A DNA stretch of 64,000 nt, from the NCBI RefSeq assembly GCF_023204875.1, contig NZ_CP096247.1:1550001-1614000 (forward strand), in the 5' to 3' direction. This document shows positions 7,358 to 28,253 of this stretch, one piece after another. The position numbers and the translations under genes are program-made. The first letter of the stretch is position 1. Every line of letters starts with the position of its first letter. This stretch comes from Prevotella sp. E15-22 (GTDB lineage Bacteria; Bacteroidota; Bacteroidia; Bacteroidales; Bacteroidaceae). The notes beneath the pieces are model-generated. The model ran no database searches, had not been told where the DNA came from, and saw only the letters and a list, made by a program, of their open reading frames with translations.

Positions 7358-7377
7358 GGCCCCGCACTGAATATATG

Positions 7378-9047: not shown

Positions 9048-9120
9048 GCACCCGTAGCTCAGTTGGTAGAGCACCTGACTCTTAATCAGGGTGTCCAGAG
9101 TTCGAGCCTCTGCGGGTGTA
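9048..9120 (+). tRNA. tRNA-Lys (anticodon CTT), copy 1
   Basis: The cloverleaf reads cleanly: acceptor GCACCCG pairs with CGGGTGT, D arm GCTCAGTTGGTAGAGC, anticodon stem CCTGA/TCAGG around loop CTCTTAA (anticodon CTT), T arm with GTTCGAGCC, discriminator A. It is 73 bases with no encoded CCA. An identical copy lies at 10864-10936 on the other strand. Confidence 0.96.
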
Positions 9121-9133
9121 CTAAGAAACAAAG

Positions 9134-9731: not shown

Positions 9732-9790
9732 TTGGAGGTTTCGGATAATTGTCTTATCTTTGCAATCGAATGTATTACAATTGAATTACA
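9732..9790 (+). promoter_or_regulatory. Promoter and candidate operator of the toxin-antitoxin module
   Basis: TTGG at 9732-9735 and TATCTTTG at 9755-9762 form a promoter. Between it and the antitoxin ATG (9795) lies an imperfect 20-bp palindrome at 9771-9790 (TGTATTACAATTGAATTACA, 16 of 20 positions symmetric). Ribbon-helix-helix antitoxins commonly bind such a site to repress their own operon; this role is inferred. Confidence 0.55.
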
Positions 9791-9794
9791 TAGT

Positions 9795-10049
9795 ATGGCA
9801 ACAACGATTACAAGAAAGCCCGCTTCATTCAGACTTAGGGCTGACCTCTTAGAGGGATTAAAGCGAAATGCCGCACGAGAGAACAGGACGCTTAACAACT
9901 ATGTTGAGAGCGTGCTGCTCGGTATTGTATTTGATGAACCTAACGAGGAGACTAAAGCCGCTATTAAGGAAGCTAAGTCAGGTAAGAACCCCAACAAGGT
10001 TTATGATAGTGTTGATGAACTCTTTAAGGATTTAGATTCGGATAAATGA
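9795..10049 (+). CDS. Ribbon-helix-helix-type antitoxin
   Basis: This 84-residue protein starts MATTITRKPASFRLRADLLE, a pattern of a short beta strand followed by helices typical of ribbon-helix-helix DNA-binding antitoxins. It has an acidic C-terminal half (EPNEETKAAIKE, DELFKDLDSD) that would wrap the toxin. The start at 9795 is chosen because an upstream in-frame start (9732) lies within the promoter. Its last bases overlap the toxin start (ATGA). A+T content is higher than in neighbouring genes, in line with recent acquisition. Confidence 0.82.
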   Translation: MATTITRKPASFRLRADLLEGLKRNAARENRTLNNYVESVLLGIVFDEPNEETKAAIKEAKSGKNPNKVYDSVDELFKDLDSDK

Positions 10050-10318
10050 AAAAACTTCAACCTACAACCCAGTATAAGAAAGACTATAAGAAATACAGAA
10101 ATAATCCCAAAAAGGTTGAAGCACTAAAGGAAGTGCTGAAAATGTTGATGAATGAGCAACCTGTTCCCGCAGAGTATAAACCACATATGCTCCTCGGTGA
10201 ATACAAAGGCTGTATGGAATGTCACATAGAAGGCGACTTTCTTCTGATTTGGATTGACGAAGAGACCGACATCATTGAACTTGTAAGACTTGGCTCTCAC
10301 TCAGAGCTGTTTAAATAG
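10046..10318 (+). CDS. YafQ-type RelE-superfamily mRNA interferase toxin
   Basis: This 90-residue basic protein has the YafQ signature: HMLLGEYKGCMECHIEGDF, then LLIWIDEETDIIELVRLGSHSELF. In the family, His residues in the HxLxG, CHI and SHSE segments help cut mRNA on the ribosome. The start overlaps the antitoxin stop by 4 bases. The 3' end overlaps the convergent phosphatase gene by 18 bases, so the SELFK end of the toxin and the LFKQL end of the phosphatase are read from the same DNA on opposite strands. Confidence 0.88.
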   Translation: MKKLQPTTQYKKDYKKYRNNPKKVEALKEVLKMLMNEQPVPAEYKPHMLLGEYKGCMECHIEGDFLLIWIDEETDIIELVRLGSHSELFK

Positions 10319-10862: not shown

Positions 10863-10989
10863 GTACACCCGCAGAGGCTCGAACTCTGGACACCCTGATT
10901 AAGAGTCAGGTGCTCTACCAACTGAGCTACGGGTGCAACGTTTTGTGTACTTGTTCAGCTCTCTTGCTGAATTGCGGGTGCAAAGGTAC
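10863..10989 (-). repeat. Right arm of the 127-bp inverted repeat
   Basis: This arm mirrors 8995-9121 with two mismatches and carries its own TACCTTTG promoter box (10981-10988, minus strand). The arms enclose about 1.7 kb. Confidence 0.85.
10864..10936 (-). tRNA. tRNA-Lys (anticodon CTT), copy 2
   Basis: The reverse complement is identical over all 73 bases to the tRNA at 9048-9120, with the same loop CTCTTAA and no encoded CCA. Confidence 0.96.
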
Positions 10990-11210: not shown

Positions 11211-13031
11211 ATGAAACTATTAAAATACCTACCCATTGCATTGGTTGCTGTGCTGCTGTGTTTGGCAGGGTGGAGTCTGCTGACCTATGAGGACAATCAG
11301 CTGTGGAAACTGCAGGAGTTGAACCTCTTTATGGACACCAGTCTGTTCTTCAAGCAGCAACTGGTGGTGCCCGGCGGCCTGCTCACCTATCTTGGCACCT
11401 ATTTCACCCAGTACTTCTTCTATGCGTGGCAGGGCGTGCTCATCGTGTGCGCTTGGTGGATGCTGCTCGTGTGGCTGTCGGCCAAGGCCCTGAAGGTGCC
11501 CATGAAGTGGTGCCTGCTGCTGGCCGTTCCCGTGGCCCTGCTGCTGGCCGCCAACATGCAGATGGGCTATTGGATATACTACATGAAACTGCGCGGCTAT
11601 TTCTTCGTGCCCACCATCGCCCTCACCTTAGGCATGGCCGTGCTCTGGGGCTGGCGACTGATGCCCCGCATGGTGCGACTGGTAATGACCGCCGTGCTGC
11701 CCCTGATGCTCTATCCCTTGCTTGGTGCCTACGGACTGCTCATTGTTCTGCTGATGGGTGTGCTCGTGTGGCGATTGAATGATGCGACGCTGTGGATGCG
11801 CCTCGCCACCACCGTTGTGGCTTTGGCAGCCGTGATTGTGGTGCCCCGACTCTTTTATGCTTTCGTCTATTATCAGACCAACCTCGACTACATCTACATG
11901 AGTGCCCTGCCCATGTTCCAGTTGGAGGAGCAGTACAACCAATACTACCTGCCCTTTATATTAATAGGTGTGAGCTATGTGGTGATGGCCCTGCCCATGC
12001 CCCAGCAGATAGAAAAGCTCTTCAACCGCCTGCCCGTGTGGCTGGGCTGTCAGGTGCTGCTCGTGGGGGTGTGCGTGGCGTGTGCCCACCATTTCTGGTA
12101 TCACGATGCCAACTTCGAGAAAGAGCTGCAGATGCGCCGCGCCATGGACAACAGTCAGTGGGAAGACATGCTGCGTGCAGCCGCCAACCTCGACGAAGAA
12201 CCCACCCGCGCCATAGTGATGATGAAGAACCTGGCCCTGTTCCGATTGGGCCGTCAGGGCGACGAGATGTACCACTATCGCACCGGTGCTAAGAAAGCCG
12301 AAGCCCCTTTCCGTGTATATATGACCCAGGTGGTGGGCTGCGCCATCTATTATCAGTATGGCCAGGCCAACTATTGCTATCGCTGGTGCCTCGAGGATGG
12401 GGTGGAGTATGGCTGGCGCGCCGAGTACCTGAAGCTGATGACCCGCTGCGCCCTGGTGAATGGCGAATATGAAGTGGCCCGCAAATATATCAACCTGCTG
12501 AAGCACACCCGCTTCCATCGCGACTGGGCCCTGCAGCAGGAAGCCTTCGTCAATCATCCCGAGAAGATGAAGACCGACAAAGACTACGCCATCATCCGCC
12601 GACTGCTGATGAAGGACGACCACCTGGGCACCGACAACGGCATGATCGAGATGTATCTGATGAGCGTGCTCATGGACATCAACACCAAAGACCCGCTGGT
12701 TCAGGAGCTCACCCTCCTGTCGGCCATGTGGAAGAAAGACATCGCCCTCTTCTGGCCCCGCTTCTTCAACTATGCCTCGCTCCACCCGGGCCAGCACATG
12801 CCCAAGCACTATCAGGAGGCCGCCTATCTCTACGGCCATCTGGAGCACCAGGTTGACATCAGTCGCATGCCCTTCGACGATGATGTGAAAAAGAACTACG
12901 ACGAGTTTATGAAGATGGCCCAGCAGTATGTCGGCATGAGCGAAGAGCAGATGAAGCCCATCTTCTATCCCCGCTTTGGCCGCACCTTCTACTACGAGTA
13001 CTTCCTGATTAGAAACCAAAAGATTTATTAA
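11211..13031 (+). CDS. DUF6057 family membrane protein
   Basis: This 606-residue protein has about ten hydrophobic segments in its first half (beginning LLKYLPIALVAVLLCLAGWSL without the Q) and a soluble, helix-rich, TPR-like second half (about 310-606). I believe it is the Bacteroidales DUF6057 family; its function is unknown. The start is supported by the promoter box 22 bases upstream. It ends 4 bp before a lipoprotein gene, so the two are co-transcribed and probably act together at the inner membrane and periplasm. Confidence 0.75.
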   Translation: MKLLKYLPIALVAVLLCLAGWSLLTYEDNQLWKLQELNLFMDTSLFFKQQLVVPGGLLTYLGTYFTQYFFYAWQGVLIVCAWWMLLVWLSAKALKVPMKWCLLLAVPVALLLAANMQMGYWIYYMKLRGYFFVPTIALTLGMAVLWGWRLMPRMVRLVMTAVLPLMLYPLLGAYGLLIVLLMGVLVWRLNDATLWMRLATTVVALAAVIVVPRLFYAFVYYQTNLDYIYMSALPMFQLEEQYNQYYLPFILIGVSYVVMALPMPQQIEKLFNRLPVWLGCQVLLVGVCVACAHHFWYHDANFEKELQMRRAMDNSQWEDMLRAAANLDEEPTRAIVMMKNLALFRLGRQGDEMYHYRTGAKKAEAPFRVYMTQVVGCAIYYQYGQANYCYRWCLEDGVEYGWRAEYLKLMTRCALVNGEYEVARKYINLLKHTRFHRDWALQQEAFVNHPEKMKTDKDYAIIRRLLMKDDHLGTDNGMIEMYLMSVLMDINTKDPLVQELTLLSAMWKKDIALFWPRFFNYASLHPGQHMPKHYQEAAYLYGHLEHQVDISRMPFDDDVKKNYDEFMKMAQQYVGMSEEQMKPIFYPRFGRTFYYEYFLIRNQKIY

Positions 13032-13035
13032 ACCG

Positions 13036-14541
13036 ATGAAACACCTGATATACACCCTCATGGCCGTCCTCGCGCTGATGTCGTGCGGCGGCGCCAGTGT
13101 GCCCCAGACTTATACCACCGTCAATGCTCAGCCCGATATCTATCCCGACTATACCGACGTGACCATCCCCGTGAACATAGCGCCCCTCACGTTTATGATG
13201 AACGACGACGCCCTCGAGGTGGTGGCCCGACTTGCGTGCGGCGACAACCAGCTGATTGTGGGCGGCGACAAGGTGCAGCCCGACATCGACGAATGGCACG
13301 AGTTGCTCCAGCAGTCCAAGGGCCGCGACATCACCGTCGATGTCTATGCCCGCTATAGCGACGATCAATGGAAGCGCTATCAGCAGTTTGCCTTCCACGT
13401 GTCTACGGATAGCATCGACCCCTGGCTCAGCTACCGACTCATCTCGCCCTCCTACGTCACCTACGAAGAGCTCACCCTGAACCAGCGCTGCCTGGAGAAC
13501 TACGACGAGCGCGTGATGGTGGACAACATGCTGTGCAGCACCGAGAAGAGCGGCCAGTGCGTCAACTGCCACAACTATCAGCAGTACAACCCCGACCGCA
13601 TGCTGTTTCACGCCCGCCAGAATATGGGCGGTACCATCATTGCCTACGACGGTCAGGTGCGCAAGATCAACATGCGCCACGACAGCATCATCTCGGCCGG
13701 CGTCTATCCCACATGGCACCCCACGCTGCCCCTCGTGGTCTTCTCGACGAACCACACCGGACAGAGCTTTCATACTGCCCACCGCAACAAGATTGAGGTG
13801 TTCGATTCCGCCAGCGACCTCATTGCCTACGACGTGAAGAAAAACCAGGTGACCACCATCGAGGCCGACACCACCGAGTTTGAGGTCTATCCCTTCTGGG
13901 CCCCCGACGGTCGCACGCTCTACTACTGCAGCGCCCACTTCGAGTTTAGCGATAGCGTTGACCACGAGGCCGACGTGATCCTGCGCACCCAGGAAATCAA
14001 ATACAACATCTATAAGAAGAGTTTTGATTCAGAGACGATGACCTTCGGGCCCCGCCAACTGGTGTTCGACGCTGTCGCCATGGGCAAGAGTGCCACGCTG
14101 CCGCGCCTGTCGCCCGACGGCCGCTTCCTGGTGTTTGCCTTGGGCAACTATGGCGTGTTCCACATCTGGCACCACGAGGCCGACCTATGGCTGATGGACC
14201 TGACCACGGGCCAGGCACGCCGCATGGACGGCATCAACTCCGACAACACCGAGAGCTATCACTCATGGTCGAGCAACGGCCGCTGGATGGTGGTGAGCAG
14301 TAGGCGCGAGGACGGCAACTACACCCGCCCGTTCATTGCCCATGTCGATGCCCAGGGCCACAGCACCAAGGCCTTTGTCCTGCCGCAGGCCGACCCCGAG
14401 TATCACCGCCAGTTTATGAAGAGCTACAACATACCCGAGTTTATGCGCGGCCCCGTGCGCTTCAAGGCCACCGACTTTGCCGACGTGCTCCGAAACGAGG
14501 ACGGCGACCCCGTGGAGTATGTTGAGAAACTGACGAAATAA
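13036..14541 (+). CDS. Lipoprotein with TolB/PD40-like repeats and a CxxCH motif
   Basis: This 501-residue protein starts with a lipoprotein signal (LALMSCGGA; lipobox Cys near residue 16). The middle has CVNCH at residues 175-179, a c-type heme-binding motif, followed by beta-propeller WD40-like (PD40) repeats such as YPTWHPTLP, VYPFWAPDGRTLYY, LPRLSPDGRFLVF and SYHSWSSNGRWMVVSS. A single CxxCH in an exported protein suggests, but does not prove, covalent heme. It is coupled to the DUF6057 gene (4-bp gap). Its role is unknown. Confidence 0.8.
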   Translation: MKHLIYTLMAVLALMSCGGASVPQTYTTVNAQPDIYPDYTDVTIPVNIAPLTFMMNDDALEVVARLACGDNQLIVGGDKVQPDIDEWHELLQQSKGRDITVDVYARYSDDQWKRYQQFAFHVSTDSIDPWLSYRLISPSYVTYEELTLNQRCLENYDERVMVDNMLCSTEKSGQCVNCHNYQQYNPDRMLFHARQNMGGTIIAYDGQVRKINMRHDSIISAGVYPTWHPTLPLVVFSTNHTGQSFHTAHRNKIEVFDSASDLIAYDVKKNQVTTIEADTTEFEVYPFWAPDGRTLYYCSAHFEFSDSVDHEADVILRTQEIKYNIYKKSFDSETMTFGPRQLVFDAVAMGKSATLPRLSPDGRFLVFALGNYGVFHIWHHEADLWLMDLTTGQARRMDGINSDNTESYHSWSSNGRWMVVSSRREDGNYTRPFIAHVDAQGHSTKAFVLPQADPEYHRQFMKSYNIPEFMRGPVRFKATDFADVLRNEDGDPVEYVEKLTK

Positions 14542-14581
14542 CCCATCGAAAACTGACGAAATAAAAAGACCGCGAACAACG

Positions 14582-15229
14582 ATGCGACGCGAAGAACGAT
14601 ACCGCTATGTGGTCGACCACTTTAGGCGCGAGATGCCCGAGGCCGACACCGAGCTATGCTACGGCAGCACGTTCCAACTGCTGGTGGCCGTGATGCTCAG
14701 TGCCCAGTGCACCGACAAGCGCGTCAACCAGGTGACGCCCGCACTCTTTGCCCGCTATCCCGATGCCCGCGCCATGGCCGAGGCCGAGCCCGACGAGGTG
14801 CTGGAATACATCAGCAGTGTGAGTTACCCCAACGCCAAGAGTAGGCACCTGGTTCAGATGGCGCGCCTGCTCATGGCGCAACACCAAGGCGCCGTGCCCG
14901 CCACCATCGACGAGCTGATGCAGTTGCCCGGGGTGGGGCGCAAGACCGCCAACGTGATGGTGGCCGTGGCCTTTGGCGGACAAGCCATGCCCGTGGATAC
15001 GCACGTCTTTCGGGTGAGTCACCGACTGGGACTCGTTGCTCCTGCCGACAACACGCCGCTCAAGGTCGAAACCACCCTGCGCCGACACCTGCCCGAGGAT
15101 GTGCTGTCGCTGGCCCACCACTGGCTGCTGCTTCACGGCCGCTATGTGTGCACCGCCCGCGCGCCCCATTGCCATCAATGCGAAATCAAGGAAGCCTGCA
15201 AGAGCTATCCGCTGAACTCTAAACTATGA
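14582..15229 (+). CDS. nth: Endonuclease III (DNA glycosylase/AP lyase)
   Basis: This 215-residue protein has the helix-hairpin-helix LPGVGRKTA with catalytic Lys121, catalytic Asp139 in VDTHVFRVS, and a C-terminal [4Fe-4S] loop with spacing C-x6-C-x2-C-x5-C (CTARAPHC, HQC, EIKEAC). It removes oxidised pyrimidines in base excision repair. The C-terminal stop lies within a period-7 repeat (15216-15250) shared with the start region of ispE. Confidence 0.96.
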   Translation: MRREERYRYVVDHFRREMPEADTELCYGSTFQLLVAVMLSAQCTDKRVNQVTPALFARYPDARAMAEAEPDEVLEYISSVSYPNAKSRHLVQMARLLMAQHQGAVPATIDELMQLPGVGRKTANVMVAVAFGGQAMPVDTHVFRVSHRLGLVAPADNTPLKVETTLRRHLPEDVLSLAHHWLLLHGRYVCTARAPHCHQCEIKEACKSYPLNSKL

Positions 15230-15250
15230 ACTATGAACTATGAACTCTAA
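15216..15250 (+). repeat. Period-7 repeat at the nth/ispE junction
   Basis: Five heptamers in a row: ACTCTAA, three ACTATGA, ACTCTAA. The array covers the nth stop codon and contains several ATGA strings, including a potential upstream ispE start at 15240. Confidence 0.85.
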
Positions 15251-15260
15251 AAAAAAACAT

Positions 15261-16091
15261 ATGATTACATTCCCCCTTGCAAAAATAAACCTCGGACTGA
15301 ACGTTGTTGAGCGTCGGCCCGACGGCTATCATAACTTGCAGACCGTGTTCATGCCCGTGCCGCTTACCGACGCCCTCGAGGTGCACGAGATGGATGCCGC
15401 CTTCCCCTCGGAGGTGGACTGCGACCTCAAGGTGACGAACATCGCCGTGGAGGGCGACGAGCAGCGCAACCTCGTGGTGAGGGCCTACAACATGCTGAAG
15501 AGCGAGTTCCCTGATATGCCGCGCGTGCACGCCCACCTGCGCAAGGACATACCCACGCAGGCAGGCATGGGCGGGGGCAGCAGCGATTGTGCCGCCATGC
15601 TCCTGCTGTTGAACCGCATGTTCAGCCTCAGACTCACCCAGCAGCAACTCATCGACAGGGCTGCCCGCCTGGGTGCCGACTGCCCCATCTTCATTCTCAA
15701 CCGCCCCGCTTATGCCGAGGGCATCGGCGAGAAGTTGACCCCCATCGAACTGAGTTTGAAGGACTACTATCTGGCCATCGTGCGCCCCAATATTCCCGTG
15801 CCCACGAAGGAGGCCTTTTCACGCATCACGCCACATATGCCCGCGAAAAACTGCCTGGACATTGTGCGACAGCCCATCGACACCTGGCGCCACGAGCTGG
15901 TGAACGACTTCGAAGAGAGTGTCTTCGCCCTGCATCCCGAGATTGGCGCCGTGAAGCAGCGCCTCTACGACCTCGGTGCCGTCTATGCGGCCATGAGTGG
16001 CAGCGGCAGCGCCCTGTTCGGCATATTCAAAAAAGAACCCGCCCTTGAGGGCGAGTTCCAGGGGATGTACAAGAAAGTGGTTAAGGGTTAA
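15261..16091 (+). CDS. ispE: 4-diphosphocytidyl-2-C-methyl-D-erythritol kinase
   Basis: This GHMP kinase of the non-mevalonate isoprenoid pathway phosphorylates CDP-methylerythritol with ATP. Key parts are the start MITFPLAKINLGLNVV, RRPDGYHNL, the glycine-rich ATP loop PTQAGMGGGSSDCAA and the C-terminal MSGSGSALFG. The start at 15261 matches the family; an in-frame ATG at 15240 would only add residues encoded by the heptamer repeat and an A-run. About 276 residues is normal. Confidence 0.95.
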   Translation: MITFPLAKINLGLNVVERRPDGYHNLQTVFMPVPLTDALEVHEMDAAFPSEVDCDLKVTNIAVEGDEQRNLVVRAYNMLKSEFPDMPRVHAHLRKDIPTQAGMGGGSSDCAAMLLLLNRMFSLRLTQQQLIDRAARLGADCPIFILNRPAYAEGIGEKLTPIELSLKDYYLAIVRPNIPVPTKEAFSRITPHMPAKNCLDIVRQPIDTWRHELVNDFEESVFALHPEIGAVKQRLYDLGAVYAAMSGSGSALFGIFKKEPALEGEFQGMYKKVVKG

Positions 16092-16096
16092 TTGTG

Positions 16097-16201
16097 CATT
16101 GTACATTGTACATTGTACATTGTTCATTGTACATTGTTCATTGTACATTGTTCATTGTTCATTGTACATTGTTCATTGTACATTGTTCATTGTTCATTGT
16201 T
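16097..16201 (+). repeat. Heptamer array 1: 15 units of CATTGTW
   Basis: Fifteen uninterrupted 7-bp units, each CATTGTA or CATTGTT, fill the space between the ispE stop (16091) and the stop of the convergent DUF5675 gene (16203). The order of A and T variants is irregular. The reverse-complement array is at 21805-21874. Confidence 0.95.
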
Positions 16202-16689
16202 CATTCAATCGTAATCCACACCCCTTCACCTTGCTTCTTCGCCTCGACGATTCGCTGCTTCAGTTCATAGACCCACTTGCGCGATTCCAGCACGAGGCCC
16301 ACCAGTTGGTTGCGGCCCAGCAGGATGCAGCCCTCGGTGTCGGCGGCCGAGTTGCCGGGATGCATGCGGATGCCTTCGAACAGGGGCACGCCCAGCAGCA
16401 GGGGCAGCCATTTGTTGAACCTGGGGCTCCACGTGATCACCACGGCATAGCGACCGGGCGGAATGGCGAAGGGCTTTAGGTTCCTTACCTTGTCGGCCGA
16501 GCGGGTGCGCATCAGCTGTCCCATGTCGAGTGTGGTGTCCTTCTGTTCGAGTACGGGCGGCTCCAGCGTGTCGCAGAAATACTGGTCTTTCTGATAGGTG
16601 ACCAGTTCGGTGCTCACTTCCTGACGGATGTACAGATGACCGATGGTATACTTTTCTTTCTTGAATTTTCTTTTTAATATCAGTTCCAT
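16201..16689 (-). CDS. DUF5675 family protein
   Basis: This 162-residue protein has a C-terminal core with RMHPGNSAADTEGCILLG, which resembles the HG...S.GC pattern of L,D-transpeptidase-type enzymes, and a preceding PPGRYAVVITWSPRFN segment. DUF5675 proteins are common in phages and phage-like loci of Bacteroidales, and a role on peptidoglycan is possible but not shown. There is no signal peptide. It lies downstream of the primase-like gene, separated by an octamer repeat. Its stop codon is contributed by the heptamer array. Confidence 0.78.
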   Translation of the reverse strand: MELILKRKFKKEKYTIGHLYIRQEVSTELVTYQKDQYFCDTLEPPVLEQKDTTLDMGQLMRTRSADKVRNLKPFAIPPGRYAVVITWSPRFNKWLPLLLGVPLFEGIRMHPGNSAADTEGCILLGRNQLVGLVLESRKWVYELKQRIVEAKKQGEGVWITIE

Positions 16690-16690
16690 A

Positions 16691-16731
16691 ACTCCTTAAT
16701 GTTATACTGTTATACTGTTACATTGTTACAC
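16691..16731 (+). repeat. Octamer-type repeat, copy 3
   Basis: ACTCCTTAAT is followed by GTTATACT, GTTATACT, GTTACATT and GTTACACA. It fills the 44-bp gap between the DUF5675 and primase-like genes. Confidence 0.8.
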
Positions 16732-16733
16732 AT

Positions 16734-19115
16734 TTAAAAACTATCCTTTTTTCGCCAGCACTGTGTGCCCACCTTCTCGATCCAGCCGTCGCGCAGCCAG
16801 CGTGAGATGATCATGCGCAATGACTTGTCGGAACAGACGCCGCGCTTCAGCTGGCGCAGATGGTCGAGGGTGAACTCGGGCTGCAGCTCGTCGAACACCG
16901 AATGGTTGGCACTGCGACGCTGGCATTCCTCCTCGGCCACCACAAACTCCTTACTCAGCGCATGGCCGAAGGCCTTCATCTGCTGCTCCAGACAGTACTC
17001 GGCCATGGTGACGGCAAAGTCCTGACAAGCCTTACTCTCGCGCATGGCCTTACTCTCGCGCATGCCGTTCTCCAGCAGATGGAACACCACGCCACAACGA
17101 AAGCCGATCACGGCCGCACGCTTGCGATAGGTGTCCTTCACGTGGTCTATGTCCTTGGCGGCCTCGATGCGTTTCTCCTCGACCCACTGCTCGATGGTGC
17201 GGCGCAGGCGGGGCACGTTGACCACGCCCTGCCATCGGCGAAGCAGTTCCGCGGCCTGACTGATGCGTCCTTCCTCGGCGGCCGAGCGCTTGTGGAACTT
17301 AGGCATCTTCTGGAACGAGGCGTCGGGCATCTCGGCCACCAGCACGCGCGACGAGAGTCCATTCTCGATGTTGTCGCTTCTGAAGCACTTGCGCAGCGCA
17401 CCGTTCGTGCCCAGCATGGTCCAGTTGTAGGCCACGTTCACCATGCCACTCTCGGCCATGTCCGAGTTGTAGTCCTGACCCCATTCGCCATGGTCAAAAC
17501 TCAGTCGGTAGATGTCGTACTTGCTCGACCACGACCCCGCGCCGTTGGTCTTGCGCAGCGTGTCGAGCTCCTCGCCAAAGGAAAAGAGCGTGTGGCCCTG
17601 CGCATTCTTCAGTCGCTTCAGCAGCGTTGAGCAACTCACCGTCACGGGCACCACGCGAATCAGCACGTGGGGGTCGTCGGGTGCTTTCTCGTTGGCCTTG
17701 CGGTTCTTCTTCTGCTCGCGCCAGGCTTCCTCGCGCTTGCGACTCACGGCATCCTCGGCATCCATCAGGCGCTTCCACAGGTCGACGGCCATCTTACACA
17801 CGCTCTTGCCCGAGGCCTGCTCGCCCCTGACGATGGCCATCAGTCCCAGTTGCTGCATGTTGCCGTCGCAATATTCCACGCTCACCTGGTCGGCATAGGC
17901 GGCCGCAATGGGCATCACGGCGCAGAGCACGGGCATGTGCATCGACGGGGGCACGCCCACCAGACTCTCTTTGAGGCCTATGGGCAGCTTCGTGTGCAGC
18001 GCGGCCAGGGGCGATGCGGGCTCGGCGACGGTGGTTGTCTCGGCTTCGAGGGCTTCGTCGATGGTGTCGGCCACCTCGGGTTCTTCGGTCTTTTTCGACA
18101 GCTGGTCCACAATCTGATCCATCAGTCGGGAGCCCTTCGTGGGCTCTTTGCAGGCCGACTCCACCACCTGGCGCAGCTCCATGTCGGTGAGTCCGAAGCG
18201 GGGCATCACCTGCATCAGCACGTCGGGATGGTTGTCGCAGATGGCGCGCAGGTTCACGGCCAGTTTGTGCAACTTCACATTCCTTTCGCCCGTCTGGGGC
18301 TCGCCGCCCGTGCGCTGCCAGTATTCGGCGATGATGGCGGAGTAGGGGATGCCTTTGAAGGAAAGATGAGAGATGAGAGATGAAAGATGTGAGATGTCTT
18401 GCTCGTGGCTGCCGAACGTGCTGCTGCTGAGCGACTTACCATCATAATACGCGCCCTCCTTGGTTCGGCCGTCGATGGTGAGTCCGCGGTCGGTGTAGGC
18501 CTTGCGGCGCAGAGCGATGTCGCGGTCGGGTAGGGGTTCGTACCAGCCGTCGGCACGATAGATCTCATACGTGTCGGGCGTGATGAAGATGGCGCGCTCG
18601 GGCGTAAAGCAGCTGGTGTCGGGCTCCACACCCAGTGCCTCGCAATAGGCGCGCTGGGCCTCGGCCACGGTCATGCCCACGGGCAGCCGGATGTCGATGT
18701 GCAGTTTGCGGCGGGCGGAATAGTCCTTGTGCAGCATCATGCCCTGCCACGGTCCGCCAATCTTCATGTCCAGTCGCTCCGACATCTCGTTGGCCTTGTC
18801 CACCAGCGCTGCATCGTCGATGTCCACGCAGGTCATAAACGTGAAACTCTCGGGGTCGATGTGCTGGCGGTCGCGGTGGTTGTCCGTGAAGCGGGTGTAG
18901 TGGGGGCAGCGGTAGGGCAGTCTGCTCTTCAGCTGTCGCTGCTGCTCCTCGCTGGTGGCGGCGGCAATGTCGCGGGCCAGTGTTTTCAGCTGTTCGCTGC
19001 GCGTCAGTTTGTTGTACTCGCTCAGGCTGTACGTACCCACATAGGCGCGGTTCTGCTCGGGCGTCTGGCGTGGGTTCATGGCCATGGTGGCCGGTTGGTT
19101 AATGGTCTGTGTCAT
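16734..19115 (-). CDS. VirE-N / DUF3987 primase-helicase-like protein
   Basis: This 793-residue protein has an N-terminal primase-like domain (BT4734/VirE-N type, about 65-225) with an acidic centre CVDIDD (98-101) and HIDIRLP, a linker, and a DUF3987 P-loop domain with Walker A GEQASGKS (431-438) and a Walker B-like FGEELDTL. This architecture is found in Bacteroidales phages, mobile elements and isolated chromosomal loci and suggests DNA replication or processing. Two oddities lie inside it: five heptamers (18361-18395) encode a DISHLSSLISHLS linker near residue 245, and an 18-bp tandem duplication encodes MRESKA twice (about 684-695). The promoter box is at 19207-19214. Confidence 0.85.
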   Translation of the reverse strand: MTQTINQPATMAMNPRQTPEQNRAYVGTYSLSEYNKLTRSEQLKTLARDIAAATSEEQQRQLKSRLPYRCPHYTRFTDNHRDRQHIDPESFTFMTCVDIDDAALVDKANEMSERLDMKIGGPWQGMMLHKDYSARRKLHIDIRLPVGMTVAEAQRAYCEALGVEPDTSCFTPERAIFITPDTYEIYRADGWYEPLPDRDIALRRKAYTDRGLTIDGRTKEGAYYDGKSLSSSTFGSHEQDISHLSSLISHLSFKGIPYSAIIAEYWQRTGGEPQTGERNVKLHKLAVNLRAICDNHPDVLMQVMPRFGLTDMELRQVVESACKEPTKGSRLMDQIVDQLSKKTEEPEVADTIDEALEAETTTVAEPASPLAALHTKLPIGLKESLVGVPPSMHMPVLCAVMPIAAAYADQVSVEYCDGNMQQLGLMAIVRGEQASGKSVCKMAVDLWKRLMDAEDAVSRKREEAWREQKKNRKANEKAPDDPHVLIRVVPVTVSCSTLLKRLKNAQGHTLFSFGEELDTLRKTNGAGSWSSKYDIYRLSFDHGEWGQDYNSDMAESGMVNVAYNWTMLGTNGALRKCFRSDNIENGLSSRVLVAEMPDASFQKMPKFHKRSAAEEGRISQAAELLRRWQGVVNVPRLRRTIEQWVEEKRIEAAKDIDHVKDTYRKRAAVIGFRCGVVFHLLENGMRESKAMRESKACQDFAVTMAEYCLEQQMKAFGHALSKEFVVAEEECQRRSANHSVFDELQPEFTLDHLRQLKRGVCSDKSLRMIISRWLRDGWIEKVGTQCWRKKDSF
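17031..17066 (-). repeat. 18-bp in-frame tandem duplication in the primase-like gene
   Basis: CTTACTCTCGCGCATGGC occurs twice in tandem (one mismatch at the end) and encodes MRESKA twice. It keeps the frame. Confidence 0.85.
18361..18395 (-). repeat. Heptamer array inside the primase-like coding region
   Basis: On the plus strand five 7-bp units follow each other: GAAAGAT, GAGAGAT, GAGAGAT, GAAAGAT, GTGAGAT. They encode the Ser/His/Leu-rich linker. Because 7 is not a multiple of 3, gain or loss of one unit shifts the frame at about residue 245 of 793. Confidence 0.92.
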
Positions 19116-19206
19116 AATCTTTTAACCTTTGTTTGTTAAATTAATGGGTATTTATGATTCCTAGGCCGAACAGTCGGGTTTCGTTTTCGGTGGCTGTCCG
19201 ACGATG

Positions 19207-19214
19207 CAAAGGTA
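19207..19214 (-). promoter_or_regulatory. -7 box of the primase-like gene
   Basis: On the minus strand TACCTTTG followed by CATCG, 92 bases before the ATG. The leader has a possible 7-bp stem (CGGACAG with CTGTTCG) around an A-rich loop. Confidence 0.6.
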
Positions 19215-19270
19215 CACACGTTTTCCCTAACGACCTGACGAATGGGGCCGTGGTGTGCTAAAATTATGAA

Positions 19271-19300
19271 AAATAACAGTGAATAACAGTGAATAACAGT
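19271..19300 (+). repeat. Three tandem copies of a 10-bp repeat
   Basis: RAATAACAGT occurs three times in a row between the promoter of the primase-like gene and the end of the next gene (19314). No function is evident. Confidence 0.8.
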
Positions 19301-19313
19301 AGACTGTAACAGT

Positions 19314-19733
19314 TTACTTCTCTTTCTTCCGCATCTGCTGGTTCCAGTTCGACTCGCTTCTGGTATAGAGTTCGAACTCGTGGAGCACCTGCCACAGGGT
19401 GCGGCGGCACGAGATGTCCGATATCTTATGCTCGGCCACCATCTGCTTCACAATCCTTATCACGTGCTGCGAATCGGCCACCTTGGCCTGCTTGAGAAAC
19501 TCGTCCACGTAGTCCTCGATGCCATAGAAGATAGGGGAGAGGCGCGCCATCAGTTGCTGGTGGGCGTCGTCCGAGATGGTTAACGGACTACTGGCCGACT
19601 CGCTCCGTGTGGGTCTCGAGTCAGGGATATTGATAATACAATTTTCGATATTTACTGTAATGGGTGCGGTGGTAAAATTTACCGTGCCGCACCCATTGAT
19701 GGATATGTTTTTGTTTTTGCGTTGTTTTCGCAT
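19314..19733 (-). CDS. Small unrecognised protein of the primase/HU island
   Basis: I do not recognise the family. The 139-residue product has a basic N-terminus (MRKQRKNKNISINGCG), an Asn/Thr/Ile-rich stretch, and a helical, mostly polar C-terminal part (IEDYVDEFLKQAKVADSQHV, then LWQVLHEFELYTRSESNWN). No signal peptide or membrane helix is seen. The start at 19733 is chosen because a -7 box lies at 19752-19759; a longer reading from 19841 would begin upstream of the promoter. It precedes the primase-like gene in the same direction but has its own promoter. Confidence 0.7.
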   Translation of the reverse strand: MRKQRKNKNISINGCGTVNFTTAPITVNIENCIINIPDSRPTRSESASSPLTISDDAHQQLMARLSPIFYGIEDYVDEFLKQAKVADSQHVIRIVKQMVAEHKISDISCRRTLWQVLHEFELYTRSESNWNQQMRKKEK

Positions 19734-19751
19734 AGTTTTAATTAAGCGATG

Positions 19752-19759
19752 CAAAGGTA
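19752..19759 (-). promoter_or_regulatory. -7 box that sets the start of the small island protein
   Basis: TACCTTTG on the minus strand, followed by CATCGC, 18 bases before the ATG at 19733. Confidence 0.6.
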
Positions 19760-19810
19760 CGGATTTTTCTGAGAACTTGCAAATTCTGCGCGTGGAAATT
19801 TCTTTTACGT

Positions 19811-20020
19811 GCCACAATGTAACAGCGCCACAGTATAACACTAAGCGGTTTTCAGAATAATTTGGCCGAGGTGGTGCACCCTGTACTCTGCACCCTGTAC
19901 TAATGCCTTAATATATTATATATATTATAATATATATAATATATTACACCTTGGGTCGTAACTCCTTAATGTGATACTGTTATATTGTTACAATGTTACA
20001 ATGTTACATTTTGACCCAAA
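19811..20020. repeat. Paired octamer element A (about 210 bp)
   Basis: The left end (19811-19846) is an inverted octamer block beginning GCCACAATGTAACAG and ending CACTAAGC. The centre has two direct copies of GCACCCTGTACT and an AT-only palindromic core (about 19909-19947). The right end (19961-20020) is a direct octamer block starting ACTCCTTAAT. The same order occurs at 40763-40973. Apart from this element and the HU promoter, nothing else is seen in the gap 19760-20174. Confidence 0.65.
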
Positions 20021-20092
20021 ACAACATGTTTCCAACTTCCAAATATATTGTACAAACTTTTAACGATTATTCACACCTCGCAGGGCCCTCAA

Positions 20093-20124
20093 TTTGCTAT
20101 TCGGACGAAAATTGGCTAACTTTG
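20093..20124 (+). promoter_or_regulatory. Promoter of the HU-like / smalltalk unit
   Basis: TTTG at 20093-20096 and TAACTTTG at 20117-20124 are 20 bases apart. The HU-like ATG is at 20175. Confidence 0.7.
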
Positions 20125-20174
20125 CATCGTCATTCAGACATAAACCTTAACCATTTTAATTTAATTCAAACATT

Positions 20175-20609
20175 ATGAGTCTTATCTACGAAAAGTATCA
20201 AAACAAGAACATGGAGTCGAAGGCTTACTGCAAGTGGTATGCACGCACGGTGACCGTGAGCACGGTGGGCCTCGACGAGTTGGCCGAGCACATGGCCAGT
20301 CACCACACACCGTTTTCGAAGGGCGTTGTCAAGGGCATCCTGACCGACATGGTGAGTTGCATTCGCGAGCTGGTGCTCGACGGCCGCGCAGTGAAGATTC
20401 CCGACCTGGCCATCTTCTCTGTGGGCATCAAGAGCGAAGGTGTCGACAAGCCCGAGCTGTTTACCACGGCCAACATTAAAAGCGCATACATGCGCGCGCG
20501 AGCCACTGGCAAGTTTACGCGTTCGATGATCACACGCGACGGCCACCTGCGCGAGGCACGTCAGTACATCGATCCAGACTCCAAGAAGGAGGAAGTTACT
20601 AACGATTAA
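20175..20609 (+). CDS. HU-like DNA-binding protein (HU-HIG type)
   Basis: This 144-residue protein matches the Bacteroidales HU-related family: VSTVGLDELAEHMASHHTPFSKGVVKGILTDMV reads as the HU dimerisation helices (written here in parts: LDELAEHM, VVKGILTDMV), and VKIPDLAIFSVGIKSEG as the beta region leading to the DNA-binding arm. It is about 1.5 times the length of standard HU. It has its own promoter and heads a unit with the smalltalk gene. Confidence 0.85.
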   Translation: MSLIYEKYQNKNMESKAYCKWYARTVTVSTVGLDELAEHMASHHTPFSKGVVKGILTDMVSCIRELVLDGRAVKIPDLAIFSVGIKSEGVDKPELFTTANIKSAYMRARATGKFTRSMITRDGHLREARQYIDPDSKKEEVTND

Positions 20610-20664
20610 AAATCGGAAGCCAAGGAAAAAGCAAGTTATTAACGATTAAAAAATTCAGAAGCAA

Positions 20665-20766
20665 ATGAAGAATTCAGGATGGAAAACCGTTCTCCAGGTG
20701 ATTGTCAGCATCATCACCGCCGTACTCACAACCATTGGAACCACCAGTTGCATGAGTCATACATAA
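20665..20766 (+). CDS. Smalltalk protein (33 residues)
   Basis: The product is MKNSGWKTVLQVIVSIITAV followed by LTTIGTTSCMSHT. The order MK-x-S-x-WKT-x-LQ, one hydrophobic helix and a TTIGTTSC end is the pattern of the tiny Bacteroidales family named smalltalk protein. It has one probable membrane helix (residues 9-25) and a Cys at 29. The function is unknown. It lies 55 bp after the HU-like gene in the same direction, its usual position. The family is easily missed because of its size. Confidence 0.85.
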   Translation: MKNSGWKTVLQVIVSIITAVLTTIGTTSCMSHT

Positions 20767-20812
20767 AAGTATCAGAATCGGCATTATGATAAATAGGAGT
20801 TTTTGGAGTGCC

Positions 20813-20901
20813 ACAAAATAACATTATAACAGTATCACATTAAGGAGTTACAATCTCTGAAAAGAACAGTATCACATTAAGGAGTTACAATCTCTGAAAA
20901 G
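20813..20901 (-). repeat. Octamer-type repeat with a 37-bp tandem duplication
   Basis: A GCCACAAAATAACATTATAAC block is followed by two exact 37-bp copies at 20828-20864 and 20865-20901, each containing CACATTAAGGAGTTAC. It is the octamer family in inverted orientation, here with its end duplicated. Confidence 0.85.
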
Positions 20902-20932
20902 CAAAAGAGGGAACCTTCTCAGGCTCCCTCTC
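20902..20932 (-). terminator. Terminator of the candidate small RNA
   Basis: A 10-bp stem with one mismatch (AGAGGGAGCC / GGTTCCCTCT), loop TGAGAA, then TTTTGC on the minus strand. It could also stop plus-strand readthrough from the smalltalk gene. Confidence 0.75.
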
Positions 20933-21046
20933 TTTACTTAATTACTTTCGATTGAAATTAACAACCAATCGATTTTGGGGAAGATTGCTTATCTCACGAC
21001 AATCAATCTTCGAATTAACCTTAATAATCTAATACCATGAAAAACA
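20902..21046 (-). ncRNA. Candidate small RNA (about 140 nt)
   Basis: On the minus strand a TATATTTG box (21052-21059) is followed by about 140 bases without a plausible ORF. The stretch forms three stem-loops in order: GAAGATTG with CAATCTTC (perfect 8 bp), CGATTG with CAATCG (perfect 6 bp), and AGAGGGAGCC with GGTTCCCTCT followed by TTTT, a good intrinsic terminator. Promoter, folded body and terminator together support an independent transcript. I cannot match it to a known RNA family. It lies between the smalltalk gene and the divergently placed LuxR-type regulator. Confidence 0.65.
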
Positions 21047-21051
21047 CTGTG

Positions 21052-21059
21052 CAAATATA
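21052..21059 (-). promoter_or_regulatory. -7 box of the candidate small RNA
   Basis: TATATTTG on the minus strand, followed by CACAG. No exact -33 TTTG is seen at the ideal distance. Confidence 0.5.
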
Positions 21060-21188
21060 GTAAGATTTAGCGAAACATGGTGCGTTTTACACTAATATTT
21101 ATTCGAGTTTTAATCTTTATTAACCCTTTTGGGGCTATTTGTAGAACTTATTGATACAGATTTAGTTGCGCGTGTCGCAGAATCTTCG

Positions 21189-21196
21189 TAACTTTG
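21189..21196 (+). promoter_or_regulatory. -7 box of the LuxR-type regulator
   Basis: TAACTTTG ends only 7 bases before the ATG at 21204. The transcript would have a leader of very few bases or none. Confidence 0.6.
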
Positions 21197-21203
21197 CAGC
21201 CGA

Positions 21204-21800
21204 ATGAATTATACACGTCCAAAAATAGCCATCGTTGATGCCAACACCCTGTCGGTGCTGGGACTGAAACAACTGCTCCAAACGGTGATGCCCATCATGA
21301 CCGTTGACACCTATGGCACCATGACCGAACTCACGGCCAACAACCCCGAGCAATACATGCACTATTTCGTGGCGATGAACATTGTGCTGGAAAACCGCGC
21401 GTTCTTCAGTGACCACCGCCGCAAGACCATTGTGCTCACGCTCTCGCTGGCCTCCAGCAGTCAGTTGGCCGAGTTTCACTCCATCTGCATCAACGTGCCC
21501 GAAGACCAGCTGGTGCGCCAGCTCCTCACCCTGCAGCAGATGGCCCACGGCGGCGGCCGCAACATGCCGCCCATGCCCCCGGTGCTTCAGCAGAAGATAC
21601 TGAGCGACAGAGAGATAGAGGTGATGGCACTCATCGTGCAGGGCTGCATCAACAAGGAGATTGCCGACAAGCTGAACATCGGACTGGCCACCGTGGTGAC
21701 CCACCGCCGCAAGATTATGGAGAAGCTGGGCATGAAGAGCGTGTCGGCCCTCACCATCTATGCCGTGACGCATGGCTACGTTGACATTAATAAGATTTGA
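21204..21800 (+). CDS. LuxR/NarL-type transcription regulator with degenerate receiver
   Basis: This 198-residue protein begins like a receiver domain (IAIVDANTLSVLGLKQLL, Asp12), but the region that should carry the phosphoacceptor Asp reads MHYFVAMNIVLENRAFF and has none. The C-terminus (about 133-193) is a clear LuxR-type HTH: LSDREIEVMALIVQGCINKE, then IADKLNIGLATVVTHRRKIMEKLG. It is probably regulated without phosphotransfer. It is transcribed away from the candidate small RNA and ends directly before heptamer array 2. Confidence 0.85.
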   Translation: MNYTRPKIAIVDANTLSVLGLKQLLQTVMPIMTVDTYGTMTELTANNPEQYMHYFVAMNIVLENRAFFSDHRRKTIVLTLSLASSSQLAEFHSICINVPEDQLVRQLLTLQQMAHGGGRNMPPMPPVLQQKILSDREIEVMALIVQGCINKEIADKLNIGLATVVTHRRKIMEKLGMKSVSALTIYAVTHGYVDINKI

Positions 21801-21804
21801 AATG

Positions 21805-21874
21805 TACAATGAACAATGTACAATGTACAATGTACAATGAACAATGTACAATGAACAATGTACAATGAACAATG
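21805..21874 (+). repeat. Heptamer array 2: 10 units of WACAATG
   Basis: Ten uninterrupted 7-bp units, TACAATG or AACAATG, start 4 bases after the regulator stop. This is the reverse complement of the unit at 16097-16201, so the two arrays are inverted with respect to each other and bracket the 16.2-21.8 kb region. Confidence 0.95.
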
Positions 21875-21945
21875 AACATTCTTAAAATTTCTTAAATATT
21901 ATATATATATAAGGTGAAGCGTGCTCAAGTCTAAAAAAATTTGAG

Positions 21946-23960: not shown

Positions 23961-24004
23961 TTGTAACAATGTAACAGTATAACAGTATAACATTAAGGAG
24001 TTAC
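23961..24004 (-). repeat. Octamer-type repeat, inverted copy
   Basis: TTGTAACAATGTAACAG, two ATAACAGT-type units and CATTAAGGAGTTAC. It lies between the rpsA terminator and the end of the minus-strand metallo-hydrolase gene. Confidence 0.8.
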
Positions 24005-27101: not shown

Positions 27102-28253
27102 TTACGACAGGAAGCCTAACAATGCGCCTGCCGCAACTGCAGAACCGATGACGCCGGCCACGTTGGGTCCCATGGCGTGCATCAGCAGGAAGTTATGACG
27201 GTCGTACTCCAGTCCAAGGTTGTTCGAGATGCGGGCGGCCATGGGCACGGCACTCACACCGGCATTGCCAATCAGGGGGTTCAACTTCTTGTCCTTGGGC
27301 AGGAACAGGTTCATCAACTTAACGAAGCACACTCCGCTGGCCGTGGCGATGGCAAAGGCAAAGGCGCCGATGATGAAGATGAAGATGGTGTTCAGCGTGA
27401 GGAACTCGCTGGCCTGCGTCGAGCAGCCCACGGTGAGACCAAGCAGCACTACCACGATGTCGTTCAGGGCGTTGCCGGCTGTCTTGGCCAGACGGGTGGT
27501 CTTGCCGCTTTCCTTCAGCAGGTTGCCGAAGAAGAGCATGCCGAGCAGTGGCAGGGCCGAGGGCACAATGAAGGTGGTGATGAGTAGGCCGATGATGGGG
27601 AACAGGATGCGCTCGGTTTGACTCACCTGGCGCGAGGGCTTCATCTTGATCACGCGCTCTTTCTTGGTGGTGAGCAGGCGCATCAGTGGGGGCTGGATCA
27701 GGGGCACCAGGGCCATGTAGCTATAGGCGCAAACGGCAATGGCTCCCATCAAGTTGGGCGACAACTTCGACGAAAGGAAGATGGCCGTGGGGCCGTCGGC
27801 TCCACCGATGATGGCAATACCTGCTGCCTGGTTGGGCTCGAAACCCAGGGCCAGGGCCAGCATGTAGGCACCGAAGATGCCAAACTGCGCGGCGGCTCCG
27901 ATGAGCATCAGCTTGGGGTTGGCCAGCAGGGCCGAGAAGTCGGTCATGGCGCCTATGCCCAAGAAGATGAGGGGCGGATACCAGCCTTGGCGCACGCCTT
28001 GATAGAAGATGTTCAGCACGGAGTTGTCTTCGTAGAGGCCAATCTCCAGGCCTGCATCAGCACGGAAGGGAATGTTTCCCAGGATAATACCCAGTCCGAT
28101 GGGCACCAGCAACAGGGGCTCGAAGTCTTTCTTGATGGCAAGATAGATGAACAGGGCGCCCACCGCTATCATAATCAAGTTGCCCACCGAGGCATTGGCA
28201 AAGCCTGTGTAGGTGAGAAACTCGTTGAAATTGTCGATGATAAACTCAAACAT
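27102..28253 (-). CDS. Sodium-ion-translocating decarboxylase beta subunit
   Basis: This 383-residue, multi-helix membrane protein matches the OadB/MmdB/GcdB family: GIGAMTDFSALLANPKL, GAAAQFGIFGAYMLA, the GGADGPTAIFLSSKL sodium-site region and the C-terminal NFLLMHAMGPNVAGVIGSA. It pumps Na+ outward using the energy of decarboxylation of a biotin-bound carboxyl group. The substrate (oxaloacetate, methylmalonyl-CoA or glutaconyl-CoA) is set by an alpha subunit that is not in this window; methylmalonyl-CoA is likely in a propionate-forming Prevotella. Confidence 0.95.
   Translation of the reverse strand: MFEFIIDNFNEFLTYTGFANASVGNLIMIAVGALFIYLAIKKDFEPLLLVPIGLGIILGNIPFRADAGLEIGLYEDNSVLNIFYQGVRQGWYPPLIFLGIGAMTDFSALLANPKLMLIGAAAQFGIFGAYMLALALGFEPNQAAGIAIIGGADGPTAIFLSSKLSPNLMGAIAVCAYSYMALVPLIQPPLMRLLTTKKERVIKMKPSRQVSQTERILFPIIGLLITTFIVPSALPLLGMLFFGNLLKESGKTTRLAKTAGNALNDIVVVLLGLTVGCSTQASEFLTLNTIFIFIIGAFAFAIATASGVCFVKLMNLFLPKDKKLNPLIGNAGVSAVPMAARISNNLGLEYDRHNFLLMHAMGPNVAGVIGSAVAAGALLGFLS

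Follow-up and report, generated by a model that had tools for sequence, protein, structure and literature searches.

The window, a 64,000-nucleotide stretch of the Prevotella sp. E15-22 genome (positions 1550001-1614000 of a single contig of 3.34 Mb), harbors one cargo-poor copy of a conserved two-armed chassis which, judged from gene content and order across many genomes, carries exchangeable cargo, often defence genes. The unit spans 16201-20766, with an arm consisting of smalltalk and HU-HIG and an arm consisting of the primase-helicase and DUF5675, both pointing outward (Table 1). An ispE-like gene (15240-16091; identified by eye) adjoins the block on one side and a LuxR gene on the other, and the genes directly outside it are housekeeping-like (by eye). 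The block is probably a satellite-like chassis of Prevotella-type genomes that works in the manner of the P4 and PICMI satellites with their hotspots; replication and lysis are the likely functions of its arms, and the element may be mobile. The label "domesticated phage module" offered in the preliminary description is too weak, as the chassis is multi-copy and its cargo is exchangeable. No publication describing this gene set as a unit was found; the accessible part of PMC10434189 mentions single members of the set and, in that part, never the whole set.

Table 1. Features of the block and its borders (window coordinates)
Feature	Position	Strand	Evidence
Heptamer array TTGTACA/TTGTTCA just beyond DUF5675	16087..16205		TRF, genome pattern search
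DUF5675, 162 aa, outer chassis gene	16201..16689	-	PF18925, E 1.8e-27
Primase-helicase, 793 aa	16734..19115	-	PF13148 (DUF3987) 33.5 bits, cut-off 27
Walker A of DUF3987 P-loop domain, residues 431-438	17802-17825	-	K437
Heptamer repeat SHLSSLISHLSF within primase-helicase gene	18364..18396		TRF, period 7, 4.7 copies
Predicted AEP-like N-terminal domain of primase-helicase, residues 1-200	18516-19115	-	D98, D100, D166; AEP-like fold of model
Small basic protein SBAS, 139 aa from inner ATG	19314..19733	-	Relatives in other copies
Divergent intergenic region, cargo to HU	19842..20174		One 25-bp repeat copy, 19960-19984
HU-HIG DNA-binding protein, 144 aa	20175..20609	+	PF18291 E 4.1e-16, above cut-off
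Smalltalk (DUF6486), 33 aa	20665..20766	+	NF033879 42.2 bits, cut-off 24.7
Two inverted copies of 25-bp repeat AACTCCTTAATGTKATACTGTTATA, 2 x 37 bp tandem	20825..20901		Repeat search
LuxR-type regulator, outside element	21204..21800	+	GerE E 3.2e-17
Heptamer array, inverted orientation, other side of block past LuxR	21801..21878		TRF, genome pattern search

A primase-helicase match was found in 25 of 60 same-genus genomes, the window's genome included, with up to 17 matches in one genome. The recurring layout places smalltalk and HU-HIG outward at one end and the primase-helicase and a wall enzyme outward at the other. It was evaluated in an 80-locus set, the best 80 of 180 confirmed GTDB relatives, of which 75 are new and five (L299, L305, L337, L352, and L358) repeat a first set; families were assigned by profiles built from the first set instead of Pfam. 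The hosts were by title mostly Prevotella/Prevotellaceae, including Xylanibacter ruminicola and Prevotella communis. Among these best 80 of 180, the primase-helicase ORF was present in 78 loci and was followed by DUF5675 in 71/78 and by a muramidase-like gene in 2/78, the remaining five comprising one split ORF, three with another gene and one ended by the contig. A companion gene of ∼148 aa preceded the primase in 71 of the 80 loci. HU-HIG was located upstream in 44 of the 78, in each case on the opposite strand, and was accompanied by smalltalk in 41; it lay at 1.8 to 8.6 kb from the primase (median 5.1 kb); it was not found in 34 of the 78, where the upstream DNA was shorter than 8 kb in 26 and at least 8.8 kb in 8. 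The linkage of the set in other genomes, which the preliminary description had put forward for Bacteroidales, is borne out by the 80-locus comparison, in which the genes did not prove to be unlinked. The more distant primase-helicase relatives match the layout less well in gene order: in the first set, which includes them, a wall-enzyme gene lay within the next two genes in 34 of the 71 primase-helicase loci having 700 bp downstream (29 with DUF5675 or M15 and five muramidase-like), and HU lay within the fetched stretch of 28/73 loci.

Clusters of HU-HIG, smalltalk, amidase, DUF4248, and VirE-type genes occur in Bacteroidales, and the window's genome itself contains two HU-HIG/smalltalk/amidase-type loci (L014 and L016). 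In such clusters the amidase lies beside smalltalk, and the helicase, DUF4248, HU, and smalltalk genes are on one strand, whereas the type in the window has two diverging arms around a cargo slot. The suggestion that DUF5675 stands in for the amidase agrees with these comparisons, as the same place holds an M15 peptidase or a muramidase-like gene in other copies and the amidase belongs to the other gene order.

Alignment of 27 homologues of the primase-helicase showed that D98, D100, D166, R174, and K437 are invariant, which upholds the DIDD and Walker A motifs (D98, D100, K437) reported earlier. We take D98, D100, and D166 to be the catalytic acids of an AEP, by analogy with the DhD plus third-Asp motif. 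The N-terminal domain has an AEP-like fold in the predicted model, and priming activity is predicted; this fold assignment and that of the L,D-transpeptidase below rest on the VIA-align Z of predicted models, Foldseek alone having returned no match at E ≤ 0.001 for the primase-helicase or the DUF5675 model. Sequence comparison of the primase-helicase with the PDB yielded nothing useful. The earlier name "VirE-N/DUF3987 primase" stands in its second half, PF13148 being above the cut-off, and falls in its first, as no PF08800 match was obtained at E ≤ 1; a relative of the primase-helicase in another genome does match BT4734-like_N (PF08800, formerly VirE-N). The heptamer repeat SHLSSLISHLSF forms, by its position in the alignment, a low-complexity stretch between the two domains.

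DUF5675 was predicted from its model to be an L,D-transpeptidase/L,D-carboxypeptidase-like wall enzyme. H110 and C121 make up an H...GC motif, and the catalytic His and Cys were both present in 13 of 15 aligned DUF5675 proteins and lacking in 2/15 relatives. The best PDB matches by sequence (E about 0.5) were to L,D-transpeptidases; compared with the YkuD-type enzymes (PDB 5lb1, 5uwv, 5e51, and 5bmq), DUF5675 shows 12-13% identity and is shorter, and its activity is predicted. Smalltalk consists of one hydrophobic stretch ending in a lipobox-like TTSC (C29) with four residues after it, and a C-terminal lipobox-like Cys was found in 42 of 43 smalltalk peptides of the 80-locus set (best 80 of 180). 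The DUF5675, HU-like, and smalltalk assignments of the preliminary description were all confirmed by profile matches, and its small basic protein does represent a protein family, with relatives at E 1e-13 to 1e-18, although SBAS gave nothing above the Pfam cut-off and no NCBIfam match. Two further members proposed for the set were discarded. The small RNA found no support, since Rfam gave only tRNAs across the window at gathering scores. The LuxR gene does encode a GerE protein, but it does not belong to the set on account of its other neighbours in relatives: HU, smalltalk, ispE-like, and rpsA-like genes were not found at any of 29 relatives' LuxR loci (1.5 kb on each side; one shorter), and in nine of the 29 the gene beside the LuxR relative is related to the one at window positions 27102-28253.

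The copy in the window represents the chassis with almost no cargo, because HU and the primase are only 1.06 kb apart, the ∼148-aa companion gene is absent, and SBAS stands without the cassette partners described below. Pfam and PADLOC identified no recognisable defence gene in it. SBAS probably starts at 19733, the longest ORF extending to 19841. The key positions of the copy are intact, namely, D98, D100, D166, and K437 of the primase-helicase, H110 and C121 of DUF5675, and C29 of smalltalk.

In other copies the slot is occupied by varying genes, many of them of the restriction-modification, RhuM/Fic, and toxin-like kinds. Pfam analysis identified RloB with AAA_21 in the slots of L097 and L211 (between the arms or upstream), Eco29kI with a C5 methylase in L091, a C5 methylase fragment in L088, an Eco57I/MmeI-like enzyme in L098 (in a stretch without HU), an N6_N4 methylase in L107, RhuM-Fic in L213, and Gp49 with an HTH partner in L209. 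Across the 80-locus set (best 80 of 180), 145 of 233 cargo-zone ORFs were scanned, the companion and ORFs below 115 aa being left out and the longest 150 less five being taken. The top families among the 145 proteins were RhuM (5) and HIRAN (4), followed at three each by N6_N4 methylases, N6 methylases, PIN, Eco57I, and BspA-like LRR; BsaWI, XamI, Eco29kI, EcoRII-C, MvaI/BcnI, Vsr, and YhcG occurred once or twice, and a peptidyl-arginine deiminase and an IS200-type transposase (Y1_Tnp, 2) were also present (25 of 50 families are listed in these counts, and an integrase may be among the others). Some slots thus carry non-defence genes such as BspA-like LRR and peptidyl-arginine deiminase. PADLOC matched 223 families in 104 cargo proteins and 89 in 104 flank proteins, counted by family and not per protein; as flank proteins also give matches, enrichment of the cargo is not cleanly proved. 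In L088, L280, and L290, SBAS relatives (E 1e-16 to 4e-18) occupy the third position of a cassette encoding proteins of 329, 245, and 131 aa, of which the 329- and 245-aa proteins have no Pfam match; the cassette could be an undescribed defence system. Its three genes recur at L088 3590-5718, L280 6455-8580, and L290 6885-9010.

Comparison of 42 complete elements provided eight pairs, at three sites, in which both flanks and nearly the whole chassis align and the slot mostly does not. The three sites comprise four, two, and two loci, and the pairs cannot be treated as independent. The aligned flanks span 2.3-4.6 kb on the upstream side and 5.4-7.9 kb on the downstream side at 85-96% identity, and the chassis aligns at 85-94%, while the slot aligns over only 0.7-2.0 of 3.1-6.7 kb. 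For example, L321 and L355 are 89-96% identical on both sides, and the intervening 2.3 kb aligns over 35 bp only; alignment ends ∼350 bp upstream of HU and restarts shortly ahead of the companion gene. L355 lacks the two cargo genes of L321 and carries three different ones. With the same flanks and arms around a different slot in all eight pairs, the cargo has been exchanged in place. In several of the eight pairs, nucleotide identity is reduced in the DNA adjoining the cargo. A recombination gradient around the cargo was considered and rejected, as four-fold sites across the primase gene showed no consistent trend.

The elements also adjoin many different genes, and one genome (G024) carries five related-chassis copies at five sites with differing cargo. 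Their chassis comprises M15, a Lin1244-type gene, a Toprim/DnaB-like gene, a BT4734-N/VapE-like primase, the slot, HU, and smalltalk, with DUF5906 above the cut-off in one copy; the cargo is HTH-Gp49, RloAB-like, RhuM-Fic, or none. In four copies the main blocks are 93-98% alike (88% in one block of L210/L211, and 78-88% at the M15 end), and the fifth is more diverged. The five sites indicate that a related chassis can also disperse. As a separate observation, a CRISPR array (by eye) at L209 8000-9077 abuts the smalltalk end of one G024 copy, and Cas9-, Cas1-, and Cas2-like ORFs (by eye) adjoin it.

Genes for mobility were sought inside the elements. Across 16 elements from ten genomes, among them the element of the window, no internal match to PF00589 (tyrosine recombinase) or PF00239 (resolvase) occurred, and a phmmer query with a single tyrosine recombinase from the window's genome had no match at the 80 loci (best 80 of 180; a weak test). 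Excised, replicated, or packaged forms of the element were not encountered. The block's six proteins matched no integrase, capsid, or conjugation family, as the preliminary description had maintained, nor PF07508 or head, tail, and packaging genes. A tyrosine recombinase gene starts 0.6 kb beyond the smalltalk end in two of the five G024 copies (L210 and L211), and a second is located 2.3 kb away from the helicase gene of L016 in the window's genome; these recombinase genes are outside the shared backbone. At the site of L096 the three relatives compared have the neighbour gene and lack the element, with a non-syntenic far flank (one genome per species), and a search with the L097 flank gave no close orthologue. 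In relatives of the window's genome ispE precedes other genes (galE-like, by eye, in several of the closest), and no clean empty site could be defined for the window's element, gene order being too rearranged among relatives.

In-place exchange of cargo at three sites and the 16 elements free of PF00589 and PF00239 matches also agree with a fixed chromosomal defence locus, i.e., a vertically inherited chassis whose cargo is traded by ordinary homologous recombination with incoming DNA and whose replication and wall genes are relics or re-used. We consider this account doubtful, however, in view of the five dispersed G024 copies, four of them largely 93-98% alike, the many different genes adjoining the elements, and the different wall enzymes found in the same place, which suggest selection for wall cutting.

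Repeats at the joints of the modules were considered as an exchange point and not retained. They occurred in 27 of 46 gaps inside elements and 6 of 23 outside (p 0.012), a weak signal since by bases they cover 12.7% inside and 9.1% outside. With up to two mismatches, AACTCCTTAATGTKATACTGTTATA has six copies in the genome, of which four lie in or at the block (16690, 19960, 20825, and 20862), one at 23978 (3 kb beyond), and one elsewhere; weaker copies occur at window positions 7373 and 11091. The TTGTACA/TTGTTCA arrays occupy about 13 genome sites (22-base pattern, up to two mismatches), and the two that flank the block are mutually inverted. Another inverted pair of such arrays, 0.4 kb apart, is present at genome positions 549844/550289. 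Elsewhere in the window, two inverted tRNA-Lys(ctt) genes (9048-9121 and 10863-10936) lie 1.7 kb apart with a small toxin-antitoxin-like pair (by eye; 9732-10318) between them.

The association of smalltalk with wall enzymes was evaluated around 72 HU-HIG genes of at least 125 aa in seven genomes (a subset of the matches, with shorter genes and one overlapping stretch left out, and with dependence among related species and among the five G024 copies). A wall enzyme was nearby in 17 of 23 HU loci with smalltalk vs. 1 of 49 without it, and an M15 gene lay at 9-10 kb in three of the six smalltalk loci counted as having no wall enzyme. Such an association would be expected if the chassis itself were an abortive-infection system, with HU-HIG as the sensor of foreign DNA and smalltalk plus the wall enzyme as the killing agents. 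In 2017 Burroughs and colleagues reportedly proposed that the HU-HIG expansion in Bacteroidetes serves the recognition of invading DNA, which also speaks for it. We nevertheless regard such a system as unlikely: PADLOC returned a single weak PrimPol match (E 0.028) for the chassis proteins, the exchangeable cargo already provides known defence genes, and 48 of the 72 HU-HIG genes have neither smalltalk nor a wall enzyme nearby. Of the defence or abortive role suggested earlier, what holds is that the set frames a slot receiving known defence genes, and not that the set itself is the defence. Two other HU contexts were observed. A minimal M15-HU-smalltalk triad lacking the primase occurs in five genomes (L013, L171, L191, L207, and L226). 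In two genomes (G003 and G026, loci L168-L205) many HU-HIG genes adjoin genes for ∼530-aa fimbrillin-like lipoproteins (by eye) without smalltalk, which is a second, different HU-linked cassette; among these loci, L169 carries an insertion at 12749-16912 when compared with L193.

Carriage of the primase-helicase by phages or plasmids proved to be rare or absent, with two matches in 50,697 phage records, none in 72,556 plasmids, and a single confirmed IMG/VR locus, which lies at the end of its contig; the IMG/VR search detects only close relatives. A few faecal "Bacteriophage sp." contigs contain genes of the set, the order in L228 being DUF3127-132 aa-primase-DUF5675-like; these contigs may be cell DNA. 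The refuting case named in the preliminary description, that the set always sits inside larger prophages, does not hold for the window, given its housekeeping-like neighbours (by eye), and one relative does lie in an IMG/VR contig. A remnant of a tailed or crAss-like prophage retaining lysis and replication genes is very improbable, for although DUF5675 has relatives in 116 phage records, many of them crAss-like, and some copies have a Rha-type regulator, BRO-like proteins (by eye), and a Lin1244-type replication gene, dozens of loci show the gene order with unchanged limits and the primase-helicase is rare in phage records.

The favoured reading, a satellite-like chassis, draws on two known systems. 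As far as the accessible text describes them, PICMI satellites of Vibrionaceae carry a DUF3987/DUF5906 primase with a defence hotspot between prim and fis and have integrase, AlpA, primase, and Fis as their defining genes, and known satellites have an integrase (PMC10803314). From that text, the element resembles PICMIs in being small and capsid-less, with a PF13148-type primase and a hotspot between the primase and a DNA-binding-protein gene, a hotspot present in related copies, the copy in the window being almost cargo-free. At the border of the hotspot where PICMIs have Fis, HU-HIG is found here. Fis and HU-HIG are both nucleoid-associated proteins. Among the block's six proteins AlpA/HTH_17 had no match at E ≤ 1, and neither had Fis; the block is not a PICMI, as none of integrase, AlpA, and Fis was found in the window. 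The wall enzyme and smalltalk are extra to the PICMI gene set as given there, and induction by phage has been demonstrated for PICMIs, whereas for the present element it is a conjecture. P4 satellites, in the part of the report consulted, have a defence hotspot between psu and int, beside cos (PMC9122126). The likeness to P4-like and P2 elements lies in conserved genes framing one slot with a differing system per copy, restriction-modification included (PMC9122126, as available); the P4 slot borders int, whereas the elements here have no internal PF00589 or PF00239 match, and neither psu nor cos was noticed in the window.

If the chassis is satellite-like, the primase-helicase would prime and unwind the element's own DNA on a trigger, e.g., an infecting phage, and HU-HIG would bind or bend the divergent control or origin region. 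The L,D-peptidase and smalltalk, presumably a minimal lysis lipopeptide (a signal sequence and a lipidated Cys with almost nothing more), would open the envelope so that the copied DNA exits, free or in the particles of another phage. Entry without an integrase could occur by homologous recombination between conserved arms and flanks, replacing the cargo only. Satellites are mobilisable by natural competence according to the accessible part of PMC13376191, which would fit spread through homologous recombination. Tentatively, these elements may thus be integrase-free Bacteroidales phage satellites that combine AEP-DUF3987 copying, a wall peptidase with the smalltalk lysis lipopeptide, and cargo-swapping recombination of the arms; we regard this as possible, though short of probable.

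The finding raises the question of how such an element spreads without its own recombinase. The satellites with defence hotspots in the cited work, as far as it was accessible, come from E. coli and Vibrio (PMC10803314; PMC9122126). The orphan families DUF5675 and smalltalk gain a testable role, and a rule follows for the discovery of defence genes in Bacteroidales, i.e., to inspect the DNA between HU-smalltalk and the primase-helicase.
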